From: Symbiodinium natans
Taxonomy: Eukaryota; Sar; Dinophyceae; Suessiales; Symbiodiniaceae
Reading direction: 5' to 3'
Length of the DNA stretch: 64,000 nucleotides
Assembly: GCA_905221605.1 (NCBI GenBank)
Contig: CAJNDS010001946.1
Location: forward strand, 186,001 to 250,000
Shown here: in pieces, positions 51,214 to 64,000 of the stretch
Layout of the letters: every line of letters begins with the position of its first letter
Position numbering within the stretch: the first letter of the stretch is position 1
Notes under the pieces: generated by a model
What the model saw: only the letters and a program-made list of their open reading frames with translations
The model's database searches: none
What the model was told of the DNA's origin: nothing
Position numbers and translations under genes: made by a program

Positions 51214-52690
51214 TCACAGGATGACGCACAGTTCTCGAACTTCTACACCCCCCCTCGACACGGTGGGTGTCGGCTCGTCCACGCGCAAGTATTCCAAACA
51301 AAGCTCACAAGCAACGCGACGCTGCAGATTGCCTGGGTGGGAATTGCGCAGGGCGGGGCAATTGCTGCGAACATGAAAGGCATATCCATGCCGCGTAGTG
51401 ATAATTGCTCTCCGACTTTGCTCCATTGGAAGAAAGGTAAGAAGCTCACTCAGAGATAGAATATGGCGGTGACGCTGTCGGTATTGCTGCACAAAGATTC
51501 CAGCGAGGAAGCTGCCAAGCATCGCCAAGGAAAACATCGCAAGGAAGGCGATCAAACTGACCTTCCACCTGCTGCTGAGGAACCCATTGCATCCAGAGCT
51601 CTCGAACCCAAGTGCGCCTCACAGCGTTCTCAACCTCAACCATATCAGCCATGGCACGTCCTATGCTCTATACACCGTACCAAAGGCAAAGCAAAAGAGG
51701 AAAAACTTTGAGCAAATCTCGCGGTGTCATGCGTTTAACGCGTGCAAGAAAGCGTTCGTCAACTTCTCCGGGTAGTGTTGGGTATTCTTGAGATCGAAGT
51801 TGGCGGAATGTGGATGACCATCACCTGGGCACCGAAAGACCGACAAGCTGCGAGCAACCGACTCCATCGTCGTGATGACACGCCAACGTTTGTAGATCAA
51901 CTCGCCATCTCGACCACGCATGCCAAGCGAGCAACCGTCAACCAACACATCGTGCAACATGTAAGGTCGCGACTGCAGAAAACGGATAGTCTGGTTCCAT
52001 GACCAGTAAGCACAGGCTCGGGGCCACTCGATCGACCAAGCATGGACGTAGTCACACAGCGACATAAAAGCCTTCCACAGCTTCCTGTGTAGCGACCAGT
52101 GCCGTGCCAAGCGACCGCGTCTGTAGGCTGGATCACGTGCATGTAGATGCTGGTACAGGCAACCACCGGTGCACGGAGTACTAGCCCACAAGTAGACGAA
52201 ACCCCCCCTGCGGATGTGGAGAGTGCAGATCTGCTGAAGCTGCGCTGTAGTGGCCGGATCTCCGCCGTCATCTGCCTCACTGACAGTCAACACACCAACC
52301 CAGGAGCACGCTCGCGACGCAGCCAACATGCTCGACATGGGAGGCGCACAGAACTCAACCACCAACCACTTTGCAAACTCCATCAAACGATACCGATCTG
52401 CAAGAGATACATGATCCTTGCCAGCCACAGCAGCACCAAGCAAGCCAACGAAACACGCCAACTCACCAACGCAAGCTGCAACAGTGACTTCAGACAAACC
52501 AAGGCTCAACATGTGCTTCAACGTAGTCCGGGCATCTAACGATTTTGTGAAGAGGTCTGCGACGTTGGAGGCTCCTCGCACTCCGAAGATGAAGAGAAGT
52601 CGCTGTCGGAGCTGATCTTGTATAAAGCTTTTTTTGCTTTGCAGCGCAATGCCATGTCTGGCACCTTGCGAGTCCGAAGCAGACACTGTG
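51214..52690 (-). pseudogene. decayed Copia fragment: end of RNase H, methyltransferase-like domain, membrane and His/Cys tail
   Basis: Begins inside RNase H (SDSQGARHGIAL, GVRGASNVADLFTKSLDA) and continues without a stop into a domain with FVYLWASTPCTGG, IEWPRACAYW, VDGCSLGMRGRDGELIYK and CPGDGHPHSANFD, ending at a stop at 51,727. These read as strongly derived C5-methyltransferase motifs: the Pro-Cys loop, a Glu-Trp-Pro in place of Glu-Asn, and the late Arg/Lys-rich motif. After frame changes, the frame at 51,214-51,555 has a membrane helix (AFLAMFSLAMLGSFLAGIFV) and FHVRSNCPALRN...ACELCLEYL. The 5' part (gag to RT) is gone. A purine run GAGGGGGGG at about 51,248-51,256 may be its polypurine tract. 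Confidence 0.65.
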
Positions 52691-52918
52691 GTCCGGCTGC
52701 ATGAGAGCAGCGAGCTAAGCTCCTAACTACAAAAGACTTGTGGCCCCGGCACGAATGCCCAAGCAGGCCAACCACGGAAAACGAGTGAAAAGAAAGGAGT
52801 CCGACACCCATAGCACTGCACTTTCGCTCGTCAGCGCGCGACAGTGACATGCGACATGTAAGCGGCAAGAGGAAAGGCGTCCCATTCCAAAAGCCACATG
52901 TGCATGCAGGGCCGTAAC

Positions 52919-53446
52919 TCAGCTAGACGCATCTGTGAAGCAGGCCTTGGAATATATCAGGATGTACACATTGAGTGAAAGCTGTACAGCATCCTTCTGA
53001 AGAAGAGGTTTTGCAGTGGTATGATCGTCCGTGTAATATCGTCTGTCTTCACTCATAAGAACAGCTCTGTAGTGCCCAGAAGTGGGGTGTGGACCAAGAT
53101 GAACAATGCAGGCATGAAGTCTGTACAGCTGTCTGGTGGTCACGAGGTCAACGTCGAACACCGGGACGCTTAACGTGCTGGTGATATCAACAGGGCAACT
53201 ACTTTTTTGCAATGACTCTTCTTCAACGCCAAAACGATTGAGTTGCACAATCAGGTGCGATGGCGCTGTCAGCAATCCCGCAAATCCGGCCTGAGCATGC
53301 CATTGGTCCAACAGGGCTTGAGGTGTGCAGTGAGCTGAGAGGGGAACCGATAGAAGAAGTGGCATTGTGCTGCCAGCCTCCTCAATGCTGATACGTCCCT
53401 CAGCAAGAACTCGTCGCTGCCAGTGGCCCTCGTAGTATTCTGCAAA
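52919..53446 (-). pseudogene. C-terminal half of a ubiquitin-specific protease, cut off by the Copia insertion
   Basis: Encodes the second half of a USP (UCH) catalytic domain: FAEYYEGHWQRRVLAEG, LIVQLNRFGVEEES, the histidine box SGHYRAVLMSEDRRYYTDDH (catalytic His codon 53,072-53,074) and the final strand NVYILIYSKA, then a stop at 52,919. The catalytic cysteine is 10 kb away on the other side of the element (63,421-63,423). The reading frame at the break matches that of the N-terminal half once the element and one target duplication are ignored, so the gene or gene copy was open here before insertion. As it stands the fragment cannot be an active protease unless the element is removed. Confidence 0.8.
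53442..53446. repeat. target-site duplication GCAAA (left)
   Basis: GCAAA directly left of the LTR edge at 53,447, repeated at 63,194-63,198 directly right of the other LTR edge at 63,193. Five base pairs is the usual Ty1/Copia target duplication. Confidence 0.85.
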
Positions 53447-53737
53447 CTCCTGGTTGGAGGTCCCAGGAGGCATGGAATCTGCAGGGTTGGCCATGGCTTG
53501 TAGAGCTCACTCGAATTTCCCTTTTCCACAACAGCAACGACACGAAATCCTTGGTCTTACTCGTTCAGGTGCTATACCTGCGATGCCTGGTACATGTAAA
53601 AACTGCGTCTGCGTGCCCACACCGGGCCATGTGTTTCCTTGCCCTTCACGGGCCTCGTTGTTGCCCTTCACCGGGCTTGGACCGCTTGACAGCGACATGC
53701 ACCCTCTTCTTCCCGGAAAAACGTGAGCACACCAGCA
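53447..53737 (-). repeat. 3' LTR of the Copia element (291 bp)
   Basis: By eye, identical to the 5' LTR except for one additional 10-bp block, CACCGGGCTT (about 53,669-53,678), that looks like a local slippage copy. In element orientation it begins TGCTGGTGTGC and ends CAACCAGGAG, so it starts with TG but does not end with CA. It contains the same ATG and 16-codon leader (MANPADSMPPGTSNQE) as the 5' LTR, which here runs into the USP fragment. Near-identity means a recent insertion. Confidence 0.9.
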
Positions 53738-53751
53738 CTCCTCCTCGCCTT
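53738..53751 (-). other. polypurine tract of the Copia element
   Basis: On the element strand AAGGCGAGGAGGAG lies directly before the first base (TG) of the 3' LTR, the required place for plus-strand DNA priming. Its adjacency independently confirms the LTR edge at 53,737. Confidence 0.8.
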
Positions 53752-53789
53752 GTGGGCTCGCTGCCCACTAGGTGTCTCATTCGGGGTGC

Positions 53790-56700
53790 TCAATGTCCAT
53801 CATGTCGGCGTAGCAGAGCATCATTGAAAGGTCTACGGTAGTACAAGGGGTAGCGCTCCAAACAAAACGAACAAACCTGGTACTCCGTCACGCGCGACCG
53901 GACTTCCCTCATTCCACGGCAGTGGAACAAGTGCACCTTTTCTCCACGTTCAGACTTGTAGAAGACACCTGTGAAGAGCTCGAAGTCGTACTCGGGGCTC
54001 TGCCTCGTACGAGGCGGGTCGGGCACTTGGCCCACTTGTGTTTCCTCGGCAACCGCCGTGGTTGTCCGAGCTGGCTCCACATTTTCCACCAATCGTGTAG
54101 TTGGCGCAGTAGCTGACGACGACGATGACATAGCCACAGGGGAGCCCTGACTCACAGGAGGCGAGGACTGCACCTCTTCCGCCCGCAATCCCATCAGCTC
54201 CTCTTGAAGGGCTCTCGTTGTCTGATCTCGGATTCGCAGAAGTCTCCGGGCCCTTCGGACTGTAGCCTCATCACTACCACAGCATCTTCCAAGGCACCAC
54301 TTCATCACCTCCCAGATTCCAATCATCGCCACACCACAAAGCACCATCAAGCCATAGAACTCGATTCCAGCGTCGTAGGGCAAAGGGTCCTTCTTAGGCT
54401 GCTGGGGCAGCTCTGCTCCCTGCGTGCCCTTTACCAAGGCACATACCACCAACATCATCATGATCCTCATCTGGTTGAAGCGAACCTCCGACTCCGGCAC
54501 CTTGATCCCATTCAGGATCACCTCCTTCGGGCCCTCCAGGAACTCTCCAACTGTCATCATCTTCCAAAGAACACGAAGATCACGCAGTCGTGGTGCAGGA
54601 ACTGCCTTCGTTCCCATGTCCGCCGCCTGCACCTCCCCCGGGGAGTGCTTCAGCTCCAGACGCCCCGACGCTGTCTCCTGACGCAGGAATCGCGCCCGTA
54701 TCCTAAGGTGACGTGTCTTCCAGCTTCCTGGGGAACTTGACGCGAGCCCCAGTGCCGCCAGGTTGTCGATCAACATGGTGACGTCCACCTTCGGATGAAT
54801 CTCCTTGATCCACTCCTTGATGCTCATGGCTTGCTGGTAGGCATTGATGACCTCATACAACTCCGCCTCCGCCACCGAGAGAGATATCACGGGTTGTCGC
54901 GCCATTCTCCAAGCCACAAATCCTCCATGCAACATCGTCGCAGCACATCCGAAGCTGCGTCCGCCTCCCGGCGCATAGCTGGCGTCTGAATAAGCCAGCA
55001 CAGTCGGTCCTGTGCCATCGTAGGTCAAGCCGAGGTCCACGGTGTCACGAAGATAGCGCAACACCATGCGCCCCAGTTTCAGCGCAGCCTCAGGACATCG
55101 GGTAGCGGCACTGCATACATGAGCCACAGCAAAGCTCACGTCAGGTCGAGTACGCATACTGAGCCATAACAGCTCTCCAGCCAGTTTCTGAGCAGCATGC
55201 ACCGCCGAAGGATCCGGTTCTGCCTCCTCGGCTCCATCCTCCGGCTCGGGGACCTGCGGCATTGCCTCCCGGGTTGCAGGTACCAACGACGGAGTCCACG
55301 TTTCCACACCATGCTCACGCAAGAGATCTCCAATGTAGCCCCCTTGACACACGTGATAGGCGATCCCTCCGTCCTTCATCTTGCTGCGTATCTCCATTCC
55401 CAGGTAGCGCACAGGGTCCTTTCCCACAAACTCCAGCGGACTGCATTTCCATCCAGCGCCCTCCTCCTCAGTTCCATTCACCAGCCATGAGTACATCTCC
55501 TCGATGTGGGCCCGCTTGCCGAGGAACAACACGTCATCGACATAAACCACCATCATCGCGATGGTCTCCTGTGGATCATCCACCGGATGCAAACGCCACA
55601 CCGACTCGTCCGTTTCAAGCTGCGTGAACTTCATGTCGCGCCCATCCACCGTCAGGCGGGCGTTGCGAATCCGCCTGTCCCGAAAGATTCCCCACAGACG
55701 AGGAGCCTCTCGCAAGCCATACAAGACTCGATCCACCTTGTACGCTGTTCCCGGGGGCACCACACCAGCTTCCACCAGAATCTTCGGAGCCGTCACCGCG
55801 TATTGCGTAGCACTCTCCGTCATCGGTGTCAAGGTGAAGGCGCTGTTAATGTCCGTTCCAGCTGCTTCCCAGTTTCGACTCGCCGCAGTCGCCAGTGAAC
55901 ATCTCACACTCTCGGCCTTTGCATTCGCGGTGTAGAGCTCCATGGTGTCACCATCCTTGACAAAATTCCCGCATATTACGAAACGGGTTTTCCGTTTGTA
56001 TTTGCTCTGATGCGCATCCTCCGGCGGCTTCACCGTAAACACAGTTTTGCCCGGCACCAAGATCAACTCACCCGCTTCAGATTGCCGCTTTGCCTGAGAC
56101 AAAGGTATTGGTCTCAAAGTCCCGGATGTCTCCAGCGTCGCGACCTCCTTCTTCATGCTCGGCACCCAGTCGGTCAAGTGCTCTCTTACCTCCTGCAGGC
56201 TGACATTGTGCACCACTTCCAAGGGCCCTTCAAGTCCTTGCAGCAGCTGCTCCACATTCTGGGTCACCGCTTCCTCCACCGAAACCTTGTTCACACGCAG
56301 CATTTTCAAGCGAACTTCATCCACATGAGCTTGGTTGTCCTGCATGAGATAGAGCTCCATGTAGGCGACGGTCTCTTCCAGGTTGTCGATGACGGTCTTC
56401 ACATGCTCATCCACAATGCCCGTCTGCCTCTCTTGTCTTTCCCATATCTCCCTTTCTTCCTCCAGCAGTTCTCGTGCCCATAGAAGTCGTTCTTGTACTC
56501 TTTCACGAACATGGTCCTGGACGGGGAACGTTGGTGTTGCGCTCAATTCACCCTCGCCTCCATCCCCTTCACGCACAAACTTCATTGTCCAGTGCACTCC
56601 CAGCTCCACATGTCCCCCGGGTACATGAACACTTTCATTCCAACCACCACCCTTCTCGATGTCGTTCCCCTGCAATACTTTCTGCTGCGGCTCCTGAACA

Positions 56701-59700
56701 TCGTCTTCCTCCTCCTCATCTGCCCCAACAGGCACCATGAAACCCATGTCCCGCAAGAGGTTGTAGTTCTCAGATCCCACATTCTTGAACTTCCTTGGAA
56801 CGTAGCCCACCACGGTGACTCGGGTTCCTGTCCATGGCATCGTCGCGTGCCACCTGTGAGCCCACAAGGCTTGGATCTTTCCCTTCACATCCATGGTTCT
56901 TCCACGCACCAATCCCCTGGTTGTTGCCCTGTACACATCCAGCGCCGTGTTTTCTTCCAGGTACGTCTGCTCCCACACTTCTCCTCCAGAAAAGTCACCC
57001 ATGCCGTACACCGAATTCGCGAACTCTCGCTCGTTGTGTAGGTCACGATGAGGTAGTAGCTCCTGGTTCACGTTCACGACGATGGTTCCGAAAGGCATTG
57101 GCTCCTTCATCTTGTTCCTGAGAAAGGTCGTGAGGAAACGGGTGACCTTGGGGAACTTGGTCGTGTTGGTTTGCACGCCCCAGACTCCTCCGTGGACGTA
57201 GGCCCCCGTGCTCCAACTCCCACACCAATCAAAGTCCTGCGTCCCCCTCCTTTTCGGACCACTTGTCAACCGAAGTGCTCGGACGATCTCCAACGCATCC
57301 TCGTCTTCGTACTTGTTATATTCAAGGTTGTCGTGGGCCCTTTGCTCCGCAATCTCTTCTTCTCCATCTTCTTGCCCTTCTTGTAGCACACGTACTCCCG
57401 GGCCATCTGGATCTTCCAATCGCCTCTTTCCACGAACTCGCCGTCCTGGATCTACGCGATCGGCCACCCATGAATCATCTCCACCAGAGGGTACTTCATC
57501 ATCTCGAACCACTCTCATGTGCAGCGTTCTGTGCCAGGTTCCATCCGCCAGTTCAAGTACATGCCCTTCACGCACATCATCGGCCGGACCCAGGTACACT
57601 GCCTCCTCCCATCTTGGGTCGAAAGGCCCCACATCCTTTTTTGTCTTCACCATCACTTGGGACCCGAACTGAATCGGCGTCATTGTTTTTCCAAGCTGAC
57701 GAGTGTTGTGGGCTGCACACGCATGCTTCATTGCACAGGGCCAGTACTTCTTGTTCAAGCCGGAAGCCGTGAGCAACACACGCGCCCTAGCCTTCAGCCA
57801 CTTCACCTGGTTCTCCGCCGTGGCATTCTGCGTCGGGGCCAAACCTTCAGTGTAAGTCTGGTAGATGTCCCGCTCCCGGCACCACTTTCGCAGTTGCTTA
57901 GTTCTGAACTCACGTGCCCTGTCAGAGTGTATCCTGGCCAGTGGAAATCCATTGGCCCTGAGGTAGATGTAAAGGTCTTGGACTGCCGCGAGGATGTCCG
58001 CACCCTTGTGTTTGGCGAGAGGAACCGCGAACCTGAGGACCTGGAATTCTTGTGGTTTGTTTAGGTCCCCCACCAATCTCTTCCACTCCTCCTCATGGTC
58101 CTTGTCCTCCTTCCTTTCCACCTCCTCTTCAGCTGCTTCTGGTTCAGGACCTTCCTCATCCACCTCCTCCTGGCCCAGGTACTCATCGATGTCATCAGGG
58201 ATCGGCATGTCCTTGGAGACCACATCAAAGGCCTTCGGGAACACATAGGTAGCTGCCAAAACGAACTTGTACTTGTTGGCCCTCCCGTTGTCGTTCCGCT
58301 CGTCTATTCCCTTTTCTGCAAACGCGCCACCAATGTCCAGGCTCAAGACGTAGGCGTCCCTGTGAAGCACTCTTCTCGCCGGTCGCCCCGTTCCCGCCGC
58401 CGACAAACACACCGAGCAATCTCTCCTAAATGGCCAATGCCCCGCTTCAACGTGACGCCGCCATTCTTCCAGCTGCTTCGGAGTGAAGGTGTTCATCGCC
58501 ACAGAAATTTCGCCTCTCCATGCCCATCTTCGGATCCCCTTCGCCAGTGCTTCTCGTAGTCCCGGAGCCCAAACAGCCATGTCCTTCGAATTCCCAGGTT
58601 CCGGCCATTCACGTCTCGTGTCCTTCAAGCCACTGAGCTCGTCCAACTCCATGGTAGTGAGCAACCCCGTTGGCTTCCTCTGGGGATGCCCAAGTGCGCC
58701 CTGATCAAACCGGTACATGTTCATGCCGTTGTTTTTCATGTGCTCGACCAACTTCGTTCTCCAAAACGACGCACACTTCTCCATGACCTCATTGGACACT
58801 GCCCCAGGTTGCAAGAACTCGCGCGGATCGTCAGGGTGCTCCATGCCGAACGCCACTGCCGGACCCCTATCCCTTCTCGGGTAACACATGTCCAAGCCTG
58901 CTTCTGCAACCAGCCACAGCCACACCATGCGCAAGATCAGGTTGTTGTCGCCTCTCACCAGTGCCTCTTCATCCCTTGTCAGTTGCCCAGGAAGACCCCA
59001 GAGATGTTGCGCCGACCTCACCGGCCGTGGTGCATTGTTACGCCCCTGCAGTTCGCGATGTCGTAGAAGGGAAAAGGTCCTGCAAGGTGGTCCCCCCACA
59101 ATGGCATGTATCTTCCCCTGTGAGGCCGCCCACAAGAGCAGCGCGAAGATGCCGCCATTGGTTGCGATGTCCCACGATTTGGACTGGGTAAGGTCAATCT
59201 CCAGCACTTCTGCCATAGATGCCTCACGTGTTTCACCTCGTGGACCCTGAACCCTGCACCCAGTCAAGGTCTTGATCGGATCTGAGGATTCCCCTTTCCC
59301 GGAGAACAAGTGCACAATCCATCGGCGGCTTGCCCACAAGGATCTCCGTCTTGCGCGATTCAATGGGAGCGACTTCATCAACTTCCAGGCTTCCTCGTTG
59401 CTCTGCGGGATTTTCTCGAAGATCCGGATCTTGTCCTCAAACGGCACGTCCGACATGAACTCCGCGCTCAGAACGGCTCGCAGACCATCGGAGGGATCCC
59501 CCGTTACGACGTAGTCCTTCAAGAAATCCGCCCAGTTCCTTCCCTCATGCGACCTTGCCACCTTGATCGACGTCTCCAGTTCCTGCATGGTCCTCAGCGC
59601 CTCGTCGGCCTTGGTGCCCTCCAACTCCGCAATGAGCCTCAAAGCATCACACTCTCGGACTTCTGGGCACGACGACCGCGTGTAGACTTGTACTTCAGGT

Positions 59701-62700
59701 CGGCTAGGGTGTCTCAATCTGCATCCGCGCGCGTTCCAGACGAACTCATACCCCAGCTGTCTAACAAGGGTTCCAAGGGGCACAATTGGTTGAGCTTGGT
59801 TGTCCCCCAAGATCGTTCCCTTGTCCGACTGAGGCAACTCAATCTTGGTGTCCCCGGCCAGCGCAACTTCCACCTTCGCGGCCTTCTTCTTCTCCTCCAC
59901 AGTGCCCGGTCGTAGTGCATGAGTGGCCCCACTATCCAACAGCCCCATTTTGCTAACTGTTGGCAACGTTCCAAGGGCCTGAGCTCTTCGCACCTCCTCA
60001 CTCTCAGCCGAGGTGATACGCATCACCTTCATCGTGGCGCTGTGCTCCATCAAGGACTTGACCATTCTCTGCGCATTCTCCAACATCTGCTGCATGTCCA
60101 TAGGCGTGCCAGGTATGGGGTCATCTAGCGCAGATCTCGTTGCCATAGGAGTCGACGCCACCGTACTCGCCTCCGATATCACCGTGGCCACATCATCCGC
60201 CTTGATCGTCTTCTGGGTCTCGGGTTGCATCGGCTTCGCCTGCACTTGCGCCGCCGTTGGAGTTGTAGGTGTAGATGCCGTCACAGTCGTGGTAGTACCT
60301 TCTGTCGGCCTTGTGGGACACGCCTTCGATTGATGGCCCTTCCCACCACAGTTCCAGCACCGTTCTCTCTTTGCATCCCGGTCCGGCCAACTATGGACAA
60401 ACCGGCATCCCTTTCCACGTCTACACCCACCATCCGTAACACCAAAAAACTTGCAAGGCTTTTGAGATCCAGCACTCTCCCCCTTGGGTTGGTTGTTGGC
60501 TGCCCCACCTGTAAGACCCTTCAGTCTGGCCTGAGGACTGTTAGGCGTGGTCGATGGCGAGTTGTTGCCCGGCACCCCCTTTGGTTTTCTAGAGGCCAGC
60601 TGCTCAAACTCCGCCAGGAGAGCTTTGTGCACCGCCTTCACGTTGTCCTCCACCGGCACGAAGTCGACCTTCAGTTGGTAGCGGACCAGGTTCATACGAA
60701 AGGCCACCTCATGGTGGTCCAACAGCGGCTTCTTCACCAAGACGTCGATACCTCGGAGAAGCACCGACGGGTCTGGTATCACAACCCCCAAATCCTTGGC
60801 CCTCTGGAAGTACCTCCACCACAGGCGCAGACCATCCACGGCCTCAGCTGCAGTACTTGTCGCTGGCGGCGACTCCAAGTGGCGCAGCAAAGAACTCTTC
60901 TCCATCGCAGATCCCGGGCGATACAGCACCATCAAGCGGCTCAGAATTTCCAGCGAAGATCTCACTCTCGACGCCACAAGTTCCCGCCTGATGTCCTCAG
61001 GCGTCGATGCCAACAAGAGCGTGGCCGCCCTCCGATCAACGCGCTGCCACCTTGCCTCCTGCAGCACAGGGGAAGCCAAAGGTGCCAGGTTGAGCCGATT
61101 GAAGTGATCTGCCTTCTGGTAGGAGTCATAGTACGCCTTGGCACAGTCCTTTACTTCCTGCCACCATTCCGCCGACGAAGTTGAGAGGTCTCCCATAGCG
61201 TGCTCCAGGCAGTGGAGCCAGTCCCCAAAGTCCACGCTAGCGCTATCACTCAAGGCGGGAAGCATCGGAATGTCTCCCACCGGCTTGTGCACATCCTCGG
61301 TTCTCTGGGACTTCGTAATCACCCGCTCCAAACCTTCCAACAGCCTGCTCATGGGATCACCTCCAGGACCAAGTGACGGCTGCCCCCTTTCTCCTCCCGA
61401 CTCCGGCAGTGCCTCTGCAGATGCCACAGCCGGTGGTTGTTTTGATTGCACAGCACCTCCTGATTGACCAAGGTGCCCTCCCAGAACTTGTGGTGGACCT
61501 CGTGGATAGACCAACGGCTGCTCTTGACCTCCTGCTGCGTCACTCTGACCAGATGGCATAAAGCCAAAACGACCTCCTGCTGCGTCACTCTGACCATTCA
61601 AAAAACGACCAGGTAGCGGACCAGGATTGCCTCGGGATTCGGTGGAAGCTCCTTGCTGAACTGGACGTAAACCATCTAAACTTCCCCCAGGTAGCGGACC
61701 AGGATTGCCTCGAGATTCGGTGGAAGCTCCTTGTTGAACTGGAGGTAGCGGACCAGGATTGCCTTGAGATTCGGGGAAAGCTCCTTGCTGAACTGGAGGT
61801 AGCGGACCAGGATTGCCTTGAGATTCGGGGAAAGCTCCTTGTTGAACTGGATGTAGCGCACCAGGATTGCCTCGTGGCCCAAGTTGGCCCGACGGACCCG
61901 GCAAGGCCCCCACCAGACCATTCCACAGGTGTTGGCCCCATCCCTGCCCAGGACGAGACCTTGCTGCATGTGGCCACTGCCCTTCTCCCATGCGTTCTCG
62001 CTCCAATTGCATCCTTCCCATCTCTTCTCTCAAGCTACTTGCTTCCCTTTTCGACTCCTCCAACTCCCTCATCATCCCTTGCAGTTGTCCTTGTAGCTGC
62101 TGACGCACTTCTTCCTTCACCGCTTCATAGGTGCTTCCTCCAGAACTGCCACCACCATCCATAGGCCTCGGTCCCACCCCGGTGGCACCATACAGCAGTG
62201 GAGCCCGCTGCTCCATTGCCCTCATCTGTTGCCTCTGCTCATCATCAAACAAAGGCGTCCTCGATGCCTCATCCCGTTCCCCATGCGACATAGGTGACTC
62301 CAACGCCCTCTGCGATCTCGACGGTCTCGTCACAGGCGACGGAAAGGGACTCGGCATCCACTCCGGGGGTGTCACCTGCTGTGACTGCCCCATAGCCTGG
62401 AAGAAAGCTCCCAGGCGAGAAACCCAGGTCGGCATCGCACCACGCGGTTGTGCCTCTCTTCCCATCTGACTGCCTTGCGCATTCCAGCTGAAACCTCCAG
62501 GTTGTTGATGCCCTCCACTATTCAGGCCATCACGCAGCATGCCCATGTCCCCAGCTTCACCGGCCGGCTCCACCTCCCTCGTCATTGAGGTTGAGGCCAC
62601 CACAGCTTGCATGCCACCTGCAACCACCGCTCCAGAGGCTAGCGCCAAGGCCTGAACTCTTGCCACTTGACCACTTGTACCATGCCCAGAGTCCATGCTA

Positions 62701-62960
62701 TCTCCAGAAACCATTGCTCCATCCACACTTCCAGCCACACCAGTGCCGCCAGCTTCCAGTGCACCATCCGGCCTTACGGCCTCCGGTTGGGCTCCATGAG
62801 CCTCTCCACCATCCAAAGCTGGTCTTACGACCCCCGGTTGGCCCCTCTCGGGCCCCGCAGCTGTTGTTGTCATTCTCGGCGAAGTAGGGCGAGCACCATT
62901 TGGGCTCATAACCTCCTGGTTGGAGGTCCCAGGAGGCATGGAATCTGCAGGGTTGGCCAT
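53790..62960 (-). CDS. Copia gag-pol polyprotein with methyltransferase-like and dioxygenase-like domains (3,056 aa)
   Basis: One ORF. Approximate residues: disordered Gly/Pro-rich N-terminus; coiled coil 277-325; five 18-residue repeats 363-450; gag-like helices 560-800; CCCH finger 836-855 and CCHC knuckle CWNCGGKGHQSKACP 866-880; protease DSG (D1009); C5-methyltransferase-like domain 1212-1480 (HLFSGKG, F1219; VGGPPCRTFS, C1293; MEHP, E1374; HPQRKPTGLLT); integrase 1498-1790 with HHCC start and D1542, D1680, E1716 (D-35-E); 2OG/Fe(II) dioxygenase-like domain 1905-2060 (PHRDLHN, H1971, D1973; FSGGEVW; H2038 and R2047); RT 2275-2560 (YVDD 2473-2476); RNase H 2650-2790. After that come two hydrophobic segments 2830-2890 and a cluster H3010-C3014-C3030-C3033. 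The ATG lies in the 5' LTR; a second ATG lies in the primer site. The fused modification domains lengthen it far beyond typical Copia polyproteins (about 1,300-1,500 aa). Confidence 0.93.
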   Translation of the reverse strand: MANPADSMPPGTSNQEVMSPNGARPTSPRMTTTAAGPERGQPGVVRPALDGGEAHGAQPEAVRPDGALEAGGTGVAGSVDGAMVSGDSMDSGHGTSGQVARVQALALASGAVVAGGMQAVVASTSMTREVEPAGEAGDMGMLRDGLNSGGHQQPGGFSWNAQGSQMGREAQPRGAMPTWVSRLGAFFQAMGQSQQVTPPEWMPSPFPSPVTRPSRSQRALESPMSHGERDEASRTPLFDDEQRQQMRAMEQRAPLLYGATGVGPRPMDGGGSSGGSTYEAVKEEVRQQLQGQLQGMMRELEESKREASSLREEMGRMQLERERMGEGQWPHAARSRPGQGWGQHLWNGLVGALPGPSGQLGPRGNPGALHPVQQGAFPESQGNPGPLPPVQQGAFPESQGNPGPLPPVQQGASTESRGNPGPLPGGSLDGLRPVQQGASTESRGNPGPLPGRFLNGQSDAAGGRFGFMPSGQSDAAGGQEQPLVYPRGPPQVLGGHLGQSGGAVQSKQPPAVASAEALPESGGERGQPSLGPGGDPMSRLLEGLERVITKSQRTEDVHKPVGDIPMLPALSDSASVDFGDWLHCLEHAMGDLSTSSAEWWQEVKDCAKAYYDSYQKADHFNRLNLAPLASPVLQEARWQRVDRRAATLLLASTPEDIRRELVASRVRSSLEILSRLMVLYRPGSAMEKSSLLRHLESPPATSTAAEAVDGLRLWWRYFQRAKDLGVVIPDPSVLLRGIDVLVKKPLLDHHEVAFRMNLVRYQLKVDFVPVEDNVKAVHKALLAEFEQLASRKPKGVPGNNSPSTTPNSPQARLKGLTGGAANNQPKGESAGSQKPCKFFGVTDGGCRRGKGCRFVHSWPDRDAKRERCWNCGGKGHQSKACPTRPTEGTTTTVTASTPTTPTAAQVQAKPMQPETQKTIKADDVATVISEASTVASTPMATRSALDDPIPGTPMDMQQMLENAQRMVKSLMEHSATMKVMRITSAESEEVRRAQALGTLPTVSKMGLLDSGATHALRPGTVEEKKKAAKVEVALAGDTKIELPQSDKGTILGDNQAQPIVPLGTLVRQLGYEFVWNARGCRLRHPSRPEVQVYTRSSCPEVRECDALRLIAELEGTKADEALRTMQELETSIKVARSHEGRNWADFLKDYVVTGDPSDGLRAVLSAEFMSDVPFEDKIRIFEKIPQSNEEAWKLMKSLPLNRARRRSLWASRRWIVHLFSGKGESSDPIKTLTGCRVQGPRGETREASMAEVLEIDLTQSKSWDIATNGGIFALLLWAASQGKIHAIVGGPPCRTFSLLRHRELQGRNNAPRPVRSAQHLWGLPGQLTRDEEALVRGDNNLILRMVWLWLVAEAGLDMCYPRRDRGPAVAFGMEHPDDPREFLQPGAVSNEVMEKCASFWRTKLVEHMKNNGMNMYRFDQGALGHPQRKPTGLLTTMELDELSGLKDTRREWPEPGNSKDMAVWAPGLREALAKGIRRWAWRGEISVAMNTFTPKQLEEWRRHVEAGHWPFRRDCSVCLSAAGTGRPARRVLHRDAYVLSLDIGGAFAEKGIDERNDNGRANKYKFVLAATYVFPKAFDVVSKDMPIPDDIDEYLGQEEVDEEGPEPEAAEEEVERKEDKDHEEEWKRLVGDLNKPQEFQVLRFAVPLAKHKGADILAAVQDLYIYLRANGFPLARIHSDRAREFRTKQLRKWCRERDIYQTYTEGLAPTQNATAENQVKWLKARARVLLTASGLNKKYWPCAMKHACAAHNTRQLGKTMTPIQFGSQVMVKTKKDVGPFDPRWEEAVYLGPADDVREGHVLELADGTWHRTLHMRVVRDDEVPSGGDDSWVADRVDPGRRVRGKRRLEDPDGPGVRVLQEGQEDGEEEIAEQRAHDNLEYNKYEDEDALEIVRALRLTSGPKRRGTQDFDWCGSWSTGAYVHGGVWGVQTNTTKFPKVTRFLTTFLRNKMKEPMPFGTIVVNVNQELLPHRDLHNEREFANSVYGMGDFSGGEVWEQTYLEENTALDVYRATTRGLVRGRTMDVKGKIQALWAHRWHATMPWTGTRVTVVGYVPRKFKNVGSENYNLLRDMGFMVPVGADEEEEDDVQEPQQKVLQGNDIEKGGGWNESVHVPGGHVELGVHWTMKFVREGDGGEGELSATPTFPVQDHVRERVQERLLWARELLEEEREIWERQERQTGIVDEHVKTVIDNLEETVAYMELYLMQDNQAHVDEVRLKMLRVNKVSVEEAVTQNVEQLLQGLEGPLEVVHNVSLQEVREHLTDWVPSMKKEVATLETSGTLRPIPLSQAKRQSEAGELILVPGKTVFTVKPPEDAHQSKYKRKTRFVICGNFVKDGDTMELYTANAKAESVRCSLATAASRNWEAAGTDINSAFTLTPMTESATQYAVTAPKILVEAGVVPPGTAYKVDRVLYGLREAPRLWGIFRDRRIRNARLTVDGRDMKFTQLETDESVWRLHPVDDPQETIAMMVVYVDDVLFLGKRAHIEEMYSWLVNGTEEEGAGWKCSPLEFVGKDPVRYLGMEIRSKMKDGGIAYHVCQGGYIGDLLREHGVETWTPSLVPATREAMPQVPEPEDGAEEAEPDPSAVHAAQKLAGELLWLSMRTRPDVSFAVAHVCSAATRCPEAALKLGRMVLRYLRDTVDLGLTYDGTGPTVLAYSDASYAPGGGRSFGCAATMLHGGFVAWRMARQPVISLSVAEAELYEVINAYQQAMSIKEWIKEIHPKVDVTMLIDNLAALGLASSSPGSWKTRHLRIRARFLRQETASGRLELKHSPGEVQAADMGTKAVPAPRLRDLRVLWKMMTVGEFLEGPKEVILNGIKVPESEVRFNQMRIMMMLVVCALVKGTQGAELPQQPKKDPLPYDAGIEFYGLMVLCGVAMIGIWEVMKWCLGRCCGSDEATVRRARRLLRIRDQTTRALQEELMGLRAEEVQSSPPVSQGSPVAMSSSSSATAPTTRLVENVEPARTTTAVAEETQVGQVPDPPRTRQSPEYDFELFTGVFYKSERGEKVHLFHCRGMREVRSRVTEYQVCSFCLERYPLYYRRPFNDALLRRHDGH
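61619..61885 (-). repeat. 54-bp tandem repeats in gag
   Basis: About five tandem copies encoding GNPGPLPPVQQGAFPESQ-like units of 18 residues, with variants (ASTESR for AFPESQ). A second, shorter duplication next to it at 61,535-61,605 encodes GQSDAAGG twice. These lie in the disordered part of gag. Confidence 0.85.
62901..62912 (-). other. primer-binding site for a half initiator tRNA-Met
   Basis: Immediately after the 5' LTR the element strand reads GTTATGAGCCCA. Its complement, TGGGCTCATAAC, equals the anticodon arm of initiator tRNA-Met (GGG stem, CTCATAA loop with CAT anticodon), ending at tRNA position 39. Drosophila copia is known to prime from a 5' half of this tRNA cut at the same place. 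The site also codes for VMSP inside the ORF. Confidence 0.7.
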
Positions 62961-63193
62961 GGCTTGTAGAGCTCACTCGAATTTCCCTTTTCCACAACAG
63001 CAACGACACGAAATCCTTGGTCTTACTCGTTCAGGTGCTATACCTGCGATGCCTGGTACATGTAAAAACTGCGTCTGCGTGCCCACACCGGGCCATGTGT
63101 TTCCTTGCCCTTCACGGGCCTCGTTGTTGCCCTTGGACCGCTTGACAGCGACATGCACCCTCTTCTTCCCGGAAAAACGTGAGCACACCAGCA
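62913..63193 (-). repeat. 5' LTR of the Copia element (281 bp)
   Basis: Element orientation TGCTGGTGTGC to CAACCAGGAG. It carries the element promoter by position, though no TATA box is visible; T-rich words such as CGTTTTTCC and GTTTTTACATG are the only candidates for a dinoflagellate TTTT-type core element. The polyprotein ATG is at 62,958-62,960, 48 bases before its 3' edge. The upstream USP frame reads into it and stops at 63,112. Confidence 0.9.
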
Positions 63194-63198
63194 GCAAA
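63194..63198. repeat. target-site duplication GCAAA (right)
   Basis: Matches 53,442-53,446. On the minus strand it is TTTGC, part of the Phe-Ala codons of the interrupted USP. Confidence 0.85.
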
Positions 63199-64000
63199 CC
63201 CTTTGTCCTGGAGGAACGCAATGAGCTCGGCAGCATCATGCTGCCTGTTGGGTTCGCTCCATTGTCGCATGAGGTTGCGCCACAACAAAAGCTGCCATAC
63301 ATTCAAAGGCTTGCGTTCTTTGAGGGCCGAACTTAGTGTCCTCATCAGTCCTGTGGGCAGTGAGGGTTGACCCGAACGGCATGCAGTCCAAAGAAGGGCA
63401 AGTATGATTGCATTGGTATAGCATGTGTTACCACTGTTGACAAGCTTTGCACGGAGAATGTGTTGCTGGTCCATGCCATGCAAAGGCGACAAGTGTGGAG
63501 GTGTGGCGGTATGGCTGGTGGGTGAGGCGTGAATCCGGCCTGCATCTGGGTGATCGATGGTCGACTGCCCTCCTCCAGTGGGGCTAGATCCCCTGTCTGA
63601 AGGTACTTGGAGAGCTGCTTCTCGAGGTTGGATCGACTGAGACGTTCCTGGCGATGTGTCATGCCCACCACCTGAGTGCACGCGTTCCCCGCTAGTCGCA
63701 GGAGGTTGGAGTGAAGCTCGTTCGCCTGCTCCGACCGAAGGGCAATGGACAGCATGAACGTGACGGTGGGACTCTTGAGCTCTGGTGCCAACGGGCGAGT
63801 CGGATGGAACCTGGTGATGACCTGGGGATCCTGGGACATTCGCAGGAGGTCTTTCACTTGCTGATGGGCGTCCTCGAGGGAGATGGGGCTCCGGGCAGTG
63901 TCCGTAAGCAGCTTGTTCTCCTCGAAGGACCACTTCAGGTGGCCGTTCTGGAGGAGGAGGACGGGGAATTCGGTGCAGCCTTGGGTCCTGTTGCGACTGT
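63194..64000 (-). pseudogene. N-terminal half of the interrupted ubiquitin-specific protease (runs off the window)
   Basis: Contains the USP cysteine box KLVNSGNTCYTNAIILALLW (catalytic Cys codon 63,421-63,423) and the following QHDAAELIAFLQDKGF, at which point the Copia element enters. Upstream, from the window edge to about 63,480, the coding-like frame is different (PVLLLQNGHLKWSFEENKLL, VKDLLRMSQDPQVITRFHPT, RSNLEKQLSKYLQTGDLAPL), offset from the USP frame. So either an intron, a frameshift or a second ORF lies between about 63,400 and 63,600. Frames overlap there, so the switch point cannot be fixed. This may be a USP gene, a retrocopy, or a USP domain once carried by another retroelement. 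Confidence 0.75.

Follow-up and report, generated by a model that had tools for sequence, protein, structure and literature searches.

A Copia-type retrotransposon of Symbiodinium natans with predicted C5-methyltransferase and TET/JBP-type dioxygenase domains in one polyprotein

Retroelements with DNA methyltransferase (DNMT) domains and DNA transposons with TET dioxygenases have each been described already. The Symbiodinium retroelements SymbioLINE-Dnmt and SymbioDIRS-Dnmt3 carry a cytosine methyltransferase, which in the latter lies inside Pol, and the long terminal repeat (LTR) retrotransposon KnitGypsy-Dnmt3 of Klebsormidium likewise has a DNMT in Pol (de Mendoza et al. 2018, PMC5890265). 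The same study reported abundant Symbiodinium Copia elements without any DNMT domain. TET/JBP dioxygenases are carried by DNA transposons of fungi, where retrotransposons with TET/JBP were not found according to the available text (Kojima 2025, PMC12730594), and a 2-oxoglutarate (2OG) dioxygenase acting on nucleic acid is encoded by Ty3/Gypsy LTR elements of orchids (PMC9289625). The base 5-hydroxymethyluracil (hmU) has been known in dinoflagellate DNA since the 1970s (references in PMC6723414). In this study, we report a Ty1/Copia-type LTR retrotransposon in 64,000 nucleotides of Symbiodinium natans DNA (contig CAJNDS010001946.1, positions 186,001 to 250,000; the window), the polyprotein of which has one block resembling C5-methyltransferases (MT) and another resembling TET/JBP dioxygenases (DX), a pairing in one Pol that is new to the literature searched.

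Two enzyme-like blocks in a single open reading frame

The polyprotein is encoded by a single open reading frame (ORF; 62972..53790, minus strand) of 3060 codons with 0 internal stops. An earlier reading by a model that saw only the letters (the sequence-only reading) had claimed a Copia polyprotein in the order protease (PR), MT, integrase (IN), DX and reverse transcriptase (RT). This order was confirmed by motifs, which run gag, PR (DSGA), MT, IN, DX, RT (YVDD) and RNase H (RH). Residues are numbered here from the ORF start (62972). The earlier numbers run 4 lower because they were counted from Met5 (window position 62960), and the former C1293, H1971, D1973, H2038 and R2047 correspond to C1297, H1975, D1977, H2042 and R2051.

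All motifs of the methyltransferase series quoted for the block between PR and IN were located, namely HLFSGKG (1221), EIDL (1258), GGPPCRTFS (1293), MEHP (1377) and HPQRKPTGLLT (1429). The catalytic Pro-Cys of motif IV is present; of 37 aligned sequences, 30 have the Cys, 6 that form one clade have Arg instead and 1 has a gap. The Glu of motif VI, here the E of EHP, is found in 34 of the 37. The predicted structure of MT (predicted local distance difference test, pLDDT, 87.7) retrieved C5-methyltransferases only, among the matches listed (50 PDB rows), DNMT2 being one of them. The MT profile matched those of 8 phage methyltransferases with a probability of 68-74%, above all 40 column-shuffled controls, and more weakly (25-29%) when up to 6 Dcm-type rows were added; the phage row Bipolar, which is not a methyltransferase frame, was excluded. 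This alignment covered motifs I-IV (one version extended further, in a register that was not confident), and at the expected site of motif VIII (QxRxR) the sequence reads, by eye, GHxxxKPT. Weak matches to phage DNA methyltransferase families in PHROGs were obtained for up to 8 of 18 MT rows (best E 0.019).

The second block, for which PHRD, FSGGEVW and a distal His followed by Arg had been claimed between IN and RT, also contains every motif (PHRD at 1974, FSGGEVW at 1994 and HRWHATMPW at 2039). Its predicted structure (pLDDT 87.4) matched the double-stranded beta-helix of TET and AlkB-type enzymes, and its iron ligands aligned with those of TET2. Comparison of the DX profile with 10 phage TET/JBP proteins using hhalign gave probabilities of 93-94% (P 1e-7 to 3e-7), and 40 shuffled controls gave <=1.2%. 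All 25 aligned sequences have H1975 and D1977, and 24 have H2042 (1 gap). The 2OG-binding residue after the distal His is Arg here and in 18 of the 25 overall (Lys in 6, gap in 1). The Asn corresponding to the base contact TET2 N1387 or NgTET1 D234 is present in 25/25, and six residues beyond the Arg, at the counterpart of CcTet F391, an aromatic position is occupied by Tyr (14), Phe (4) or His (6), with 1 gap; these TET residues serve in base contact and stacking (PMC11040006). The final Arg of RxxxxxR, an AlkB feature (PMC544882), is absent from DX (0/24). Profiles and active-site residues support placing DX with TET/JBP rather than AlkB.

Pfam was one of the checks proposed with the sequence-only reading. 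No PF00145 match was found in the polyprotein, and 1 of 18 MT rows reached E 0.043, short of the gathering score. DX stayed below the PF12851 (Tet_JBP) gathering score (15.9 against 34.9 bits) but stood as a sub-threshold match (E 0.008); 5 of 14 DX rows matched this family (best E 9.9e-5), and two phage TET/JBP proteins likewise fell under the gathering score (26.5 and 26.1 bits). Searches of NCBIfam and, with DX, of PHROGs gave nothing useful, tblastn against phages with one MT row and DX as queries gave chance matches only, and nothing was confirmed in the viral contigs searched.

The sequence-only reading had named, as evidence against itself, blocks without a fold match or with unconserved residues; both searches were run, and the fold matches and conservation given above were found instead. 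Confident models, residues kept in distant relatives and profiles scoring above all 40 shuffles each place the two blocks beyond chance. On this evidence MT is a divergent C5-methyltransferase-fold domain between PR and IN, with predicted activity, and DX is a divergent TET/JBP-type Fe(II)/2OG dioxygenase domain between IN and RT, putatively catalytic.

Occurrence and divergence of the two domains among relatives

Relatives were collected by similarity to MT or DX, with near-copies included, so the frequency of such elements cannot be read from the counts. The MT search returned 35 proteins, 25 of them with a precomputed RVT_2 domain; the 7 with a named organism are all from Symbiodinium, and two S. 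natans proteins, P0003 and P0004, match MT at 99 and 98%. A protease region before MT and an integrase region after it are present in 35/35. DX was found in 21 of 36 MT polyproteins (P0001 included) and in P0037-P0040, making 25; three short DX fragments from the DX-alignment search were left out of the counts. Catalytic residues are kept in relatives with 34-57% identity in MT and 25-36% in DX.

Both active sites (Cys and Glu of MT; His, Asp, His and Arg of DX) are intact in 12/36 Copia-type polyproteins, which represent four groups of the MT tree (P0001/2/4; P0005-9; P0010/11/13; P0024). DX accompanies an altered or gapped MT in 8/36, the gaps of P0014 and P0035 perhaps being gene-model faults, and P0003 has an intact MT with DX in two pieces. 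The DX module also occurs in the RVT_1/RT_RNaseH elements P0038-P0040 of Symbiodinium; in P0040 (RVT_1, RT_RNaseH) an upstream block has PPC, but Cys where the catalytic Glu is expected.

MT identity tracks that of RT and IN, and a 9-member clade of the PR-IN-RT tree was recovered by MT (100/99 and 100/98). DX is only 26-32% identical to the DX of its nearest RT relatives, whose RT is 58-64% identical, and falls outside them in the DX tree (approximately unbiased test, p 0.03, for a group picked after the identities were known). This discordance would reflect either fast change or exchange of the module, exchange being weakly supported by the trees.

Further features of the relatives were noted. 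In the related Copia-type polyprotein P0030 the precomputed domains include a further nucleotide enzyme, a dUTPase (PF00692). P0004 and P0007 bear the public names Rhodanese domain-containing protein and InlI protein, and P0007 (4322 aa) has leucine-rich repeats joined to the polyprotein, perhaps through gene-model fusion.

Structure and surroundings of the element

The region 53447-63193 (minus strand) is a young Ty1/Copia-type LTR retrotransposon (Table 1). RVT_2, the PR-IN-RT-RH order, LTRs and a short target duplication were all found, and in the polyprotein Pfam gave RVT_2 and a weak rve match, with none for RVT_1, tyrosine recombinase or LINE endonuclease, the domains expected of SymbioDIRS-Dnmt3 or SymbioLINE-Dnmt. 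The LTRs differ by one 10-bp indel, to which BLAST adds 1 mismatch at the outer edge. This near-identity and the 5-bp duplication GCAAA on both sides indicate recent insertion. The observed/expected CpG ratio is 0.76 within the element and 0.76 in the remainder of the window, and is uninformative.

Table 1. Features of the retrotransposon (window coordinates; polyprotein residues counted from the ORF start)
Feature	Coordinates	Strand	Basis or remark
Whole Ty1/Copia-type LTR retrotransposon	53447..63193	-	LTR pair, target duplication, RVT_2
5' LTR	62913..63193	-	Repeat comparison; contains first Met of ORF (62960)
3' LTR	53447..53737	-	Repeat comparison
Target-site duplication GCAAA (element strand TTTGC), 5' side	63194..63198	.	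Read from sequence
Target-site duplication GCAAA, 3' side	53442..53446	.	Read from sequence
Polyprotein ORF, Met5 to stop	53790..62960	-	No internal stop
gag zinc fingers, CCCH-like and CCHC	60303..60470	-	Pfam zf-CCHC 1.7e-4, zf-CCHC_6 1e-4
Protease active-site motif LDSGA	59907..59939	-	By eye; region present in 35/35 MT relatives
MT, predicted C5-methyltransferase-fold domain (residues 1205-1480; C1297, E1378)	58533..59360	-	Predicted fold, motifs, conservation
Integrase (HHCC region, D1546, D1684, E1720)	57273..58505	-	Pfam rve E 0.013 (sub-cut-off), motifs
DX, predicted TET/JBP-type dioxygenase domain (residues 1886-2073)	56754..57317	-	Profile, predicted fold, conservation
DX key residues H1975, D1977, N1980, N1986, H2042, R2051, Y2057
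Reverse transcriptase RVT_2 (residues 2307-2563)	55284..56054; YVDD 55533-55544	-	Pfam 6e-10
RNase H region	54603..55055	-	SDAS motif and relatives; no Pfam match

The C-terminal stretch of the polyprotein (residues 2790-3060; 53793-54605, minus) has a hydrophobic segment and ends in a region rich in Cys and His; it recurs in several relatives and has no Pfam match. The N-terminal gag region contains a tandem repeat of ~54 bp units (61611-61872). A ubiquitin-protease-like (UCH) ORF is split by the element into 52919-53506 and 63112-63999 (minus), its C-terminal part matching at E 9.5e-14 and its N-terminal part at E 0.0051, under the cut-off. The adjacent ORF 51727-52722 (minus) has ADLFTKSLD, resembling an RNase-H end, and, by eye, STPCTGG and EWP. 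Neither Pfam nor PHROGs gave a relevant match for it; it may represent a second divergent methyltransferase-like block, belonging to a different retroelement.

Possible roles of the two domains and comparison with known systems

Phages have methyltransferase-plus-TET pairs, and the element may be a one-polypeptide version of them. Both MT and DX would be active on newly synthesised cDNA within the particle or the pre-integration complex, where MT would methylate cytosine and DX would oxidise the resulting 5-methylcytosine (5mC) to 5-hydroxymethylcytosine (5hmC) or further. On arrival in the nucleus the new copy would then bear modified cytosines, which the silencing or nucleases of the host would take for self or be unable to read. 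As the Pol of such elements handles RNA and cDNA, its own nucleic acid is the likeliest substrate, as was likewise argued for SymbioDIRS-Dnmt3 (PMC5890265). The route from C through 5mC to 5hmC is favoured because DX has a pocket similar to those of enzymes that oxidise 5mC, and MT would supply the substrate; that a single polyprotein with both enzymes active marks its own cDNA in this way is, in our judgement, slightly short of an even chance.

Several observations weigh against this reading. Foldseek template modelling (TM) scores for MT are only 0.30-0.42, its profile had zero matches among PDB profiles and matched Dcm at P 0.01 only, and ALKBH5 and FTO stand level with NgTET1 in the VIA structure list, among the matches listed. 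Intact MT occurs without detected DX in 15/36 polyproteins, although four of these (P0016, P0017, P0025 and P0027) also lack RT and are perhaps cut-short records, and P0037 has DX without detected MT, so that the two are not obligate partners. Finally, PPR replaces PPC in the MT of P0028, P0029, P0032, P0033, P0034 and P0036. At the DX positions of Arg and Tyr, these six sequences and no others have Lys and His, and they form one clade in all three trees; the changes in both blocks amount to a single event, so that coupling is only suggested.

This six-member clade, with the weak Pfam scores, speaks for non-catalytic or decaying domains retained for structure or binding, yet outside it the MT Cys and Glu are kept at 25-57% identity, as are the iron ligands in all aligned DX, and we regard this as the least likely explanation. 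Oxidation of T, which ranks second after that of 5mC though we consider it unlikely, would make the system a camouflage: MT would give 5mC and DX would turn T into hmU, and cDNA synthesised from unmodified nucleotides would come to resemble dinoflagellate DNA. There hmU replaces 12-70% of T (PMC6723414), Breviolum repeats are enriched in hmU (PMC11071213) and the majority of Symbiodinium CGs are methylated (PMC5890265). JBP enzymes, which share a superfamily with DX, hydroxylate T (PMC11065319). However, the invariant DX Asn corresponds to the TET2 residue contacting N4 of 5mC, a group that thymine lacks. DX could instead act on 5mC that the host has placed on the element or its target, removing or oxidising it, with a separate role for MT, as an anti-silencing function has been suggested for the fungal TET-bearing DNA transposons (PMC12730594); the coupling of DX to a methyltransferase in 12/36 polyproteins is unexpected for a pure eraser, and we consider this reading quite improbable. 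Modification of the element's genomic RNA by both domains would agree with the DNMT2 match of MT and with the active AlkB-type m6A RNA demethylase of an orchid Gypsy element (PMC9289625), but with a TET-type pocket and the final AlkB Arg missing in 24/24 DX it appears very unlikely.

A wider proposal, which we hold only tentatively, is that dinoflagellates harbour a large radiation of retroelements with a two-step modification line of their own (methyltransferase, then TET/JBP oxidase) in Pol, writing modified bases into each cDNA, with the TET-like module moving between element types, including those with RVT_1. If true, TETs would become known in retrotransposons for the first time, and they would be a possible origin of unusual, oxidised bases (5hmC or hmU) in the genomes of dinoflagellates. 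The element described here would extend TET carriage to retrotransposons, and the published statement of Symbiodinium Copia elements without a DNMT domain (PMC5890265) would need correction. Among the papers listed in searches of mostly open-access literature, for most of which titles and abstract openings were covered, none describes a TET in a retrotransposon or a Pol polyprotein that pairs a methyltransferase with an oxidase of TET type, and absence is not proven by such searches.

Unlike this element, SymbioLINE-Dnmt and SymbioDIRS-Dnmt3 belong to the LINE and DIRS types and have DNMTs that Pfam recognises, and KnitGypsy-Dnmt3 is a Gypsy element with a Dnmt3-type enzyme; the available text of PMC5890265 mentions a dioxygenase for none of them. 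The fungal TET/JBP carriers are DNA transposons and Helitrons (PMC12730594). The orchid enzyme is AlkB-type, encoded by an additional ORF and active on RNA, with no methyltransferase mentioned in the accessible part of PMC9289625. The best profile match of DX is to phage TET/JBP proteins (Mycobacterium phage Nigel gp2 and relatives), with which it has HRDxxN and Arg-x5-Tyr in common. These phage proteins differ in being separate genes of bacterial viruses. The element described here offers putative single-polypeptide enzymes for testing the way in which mobile DNA could mark the cDNA that it produces.
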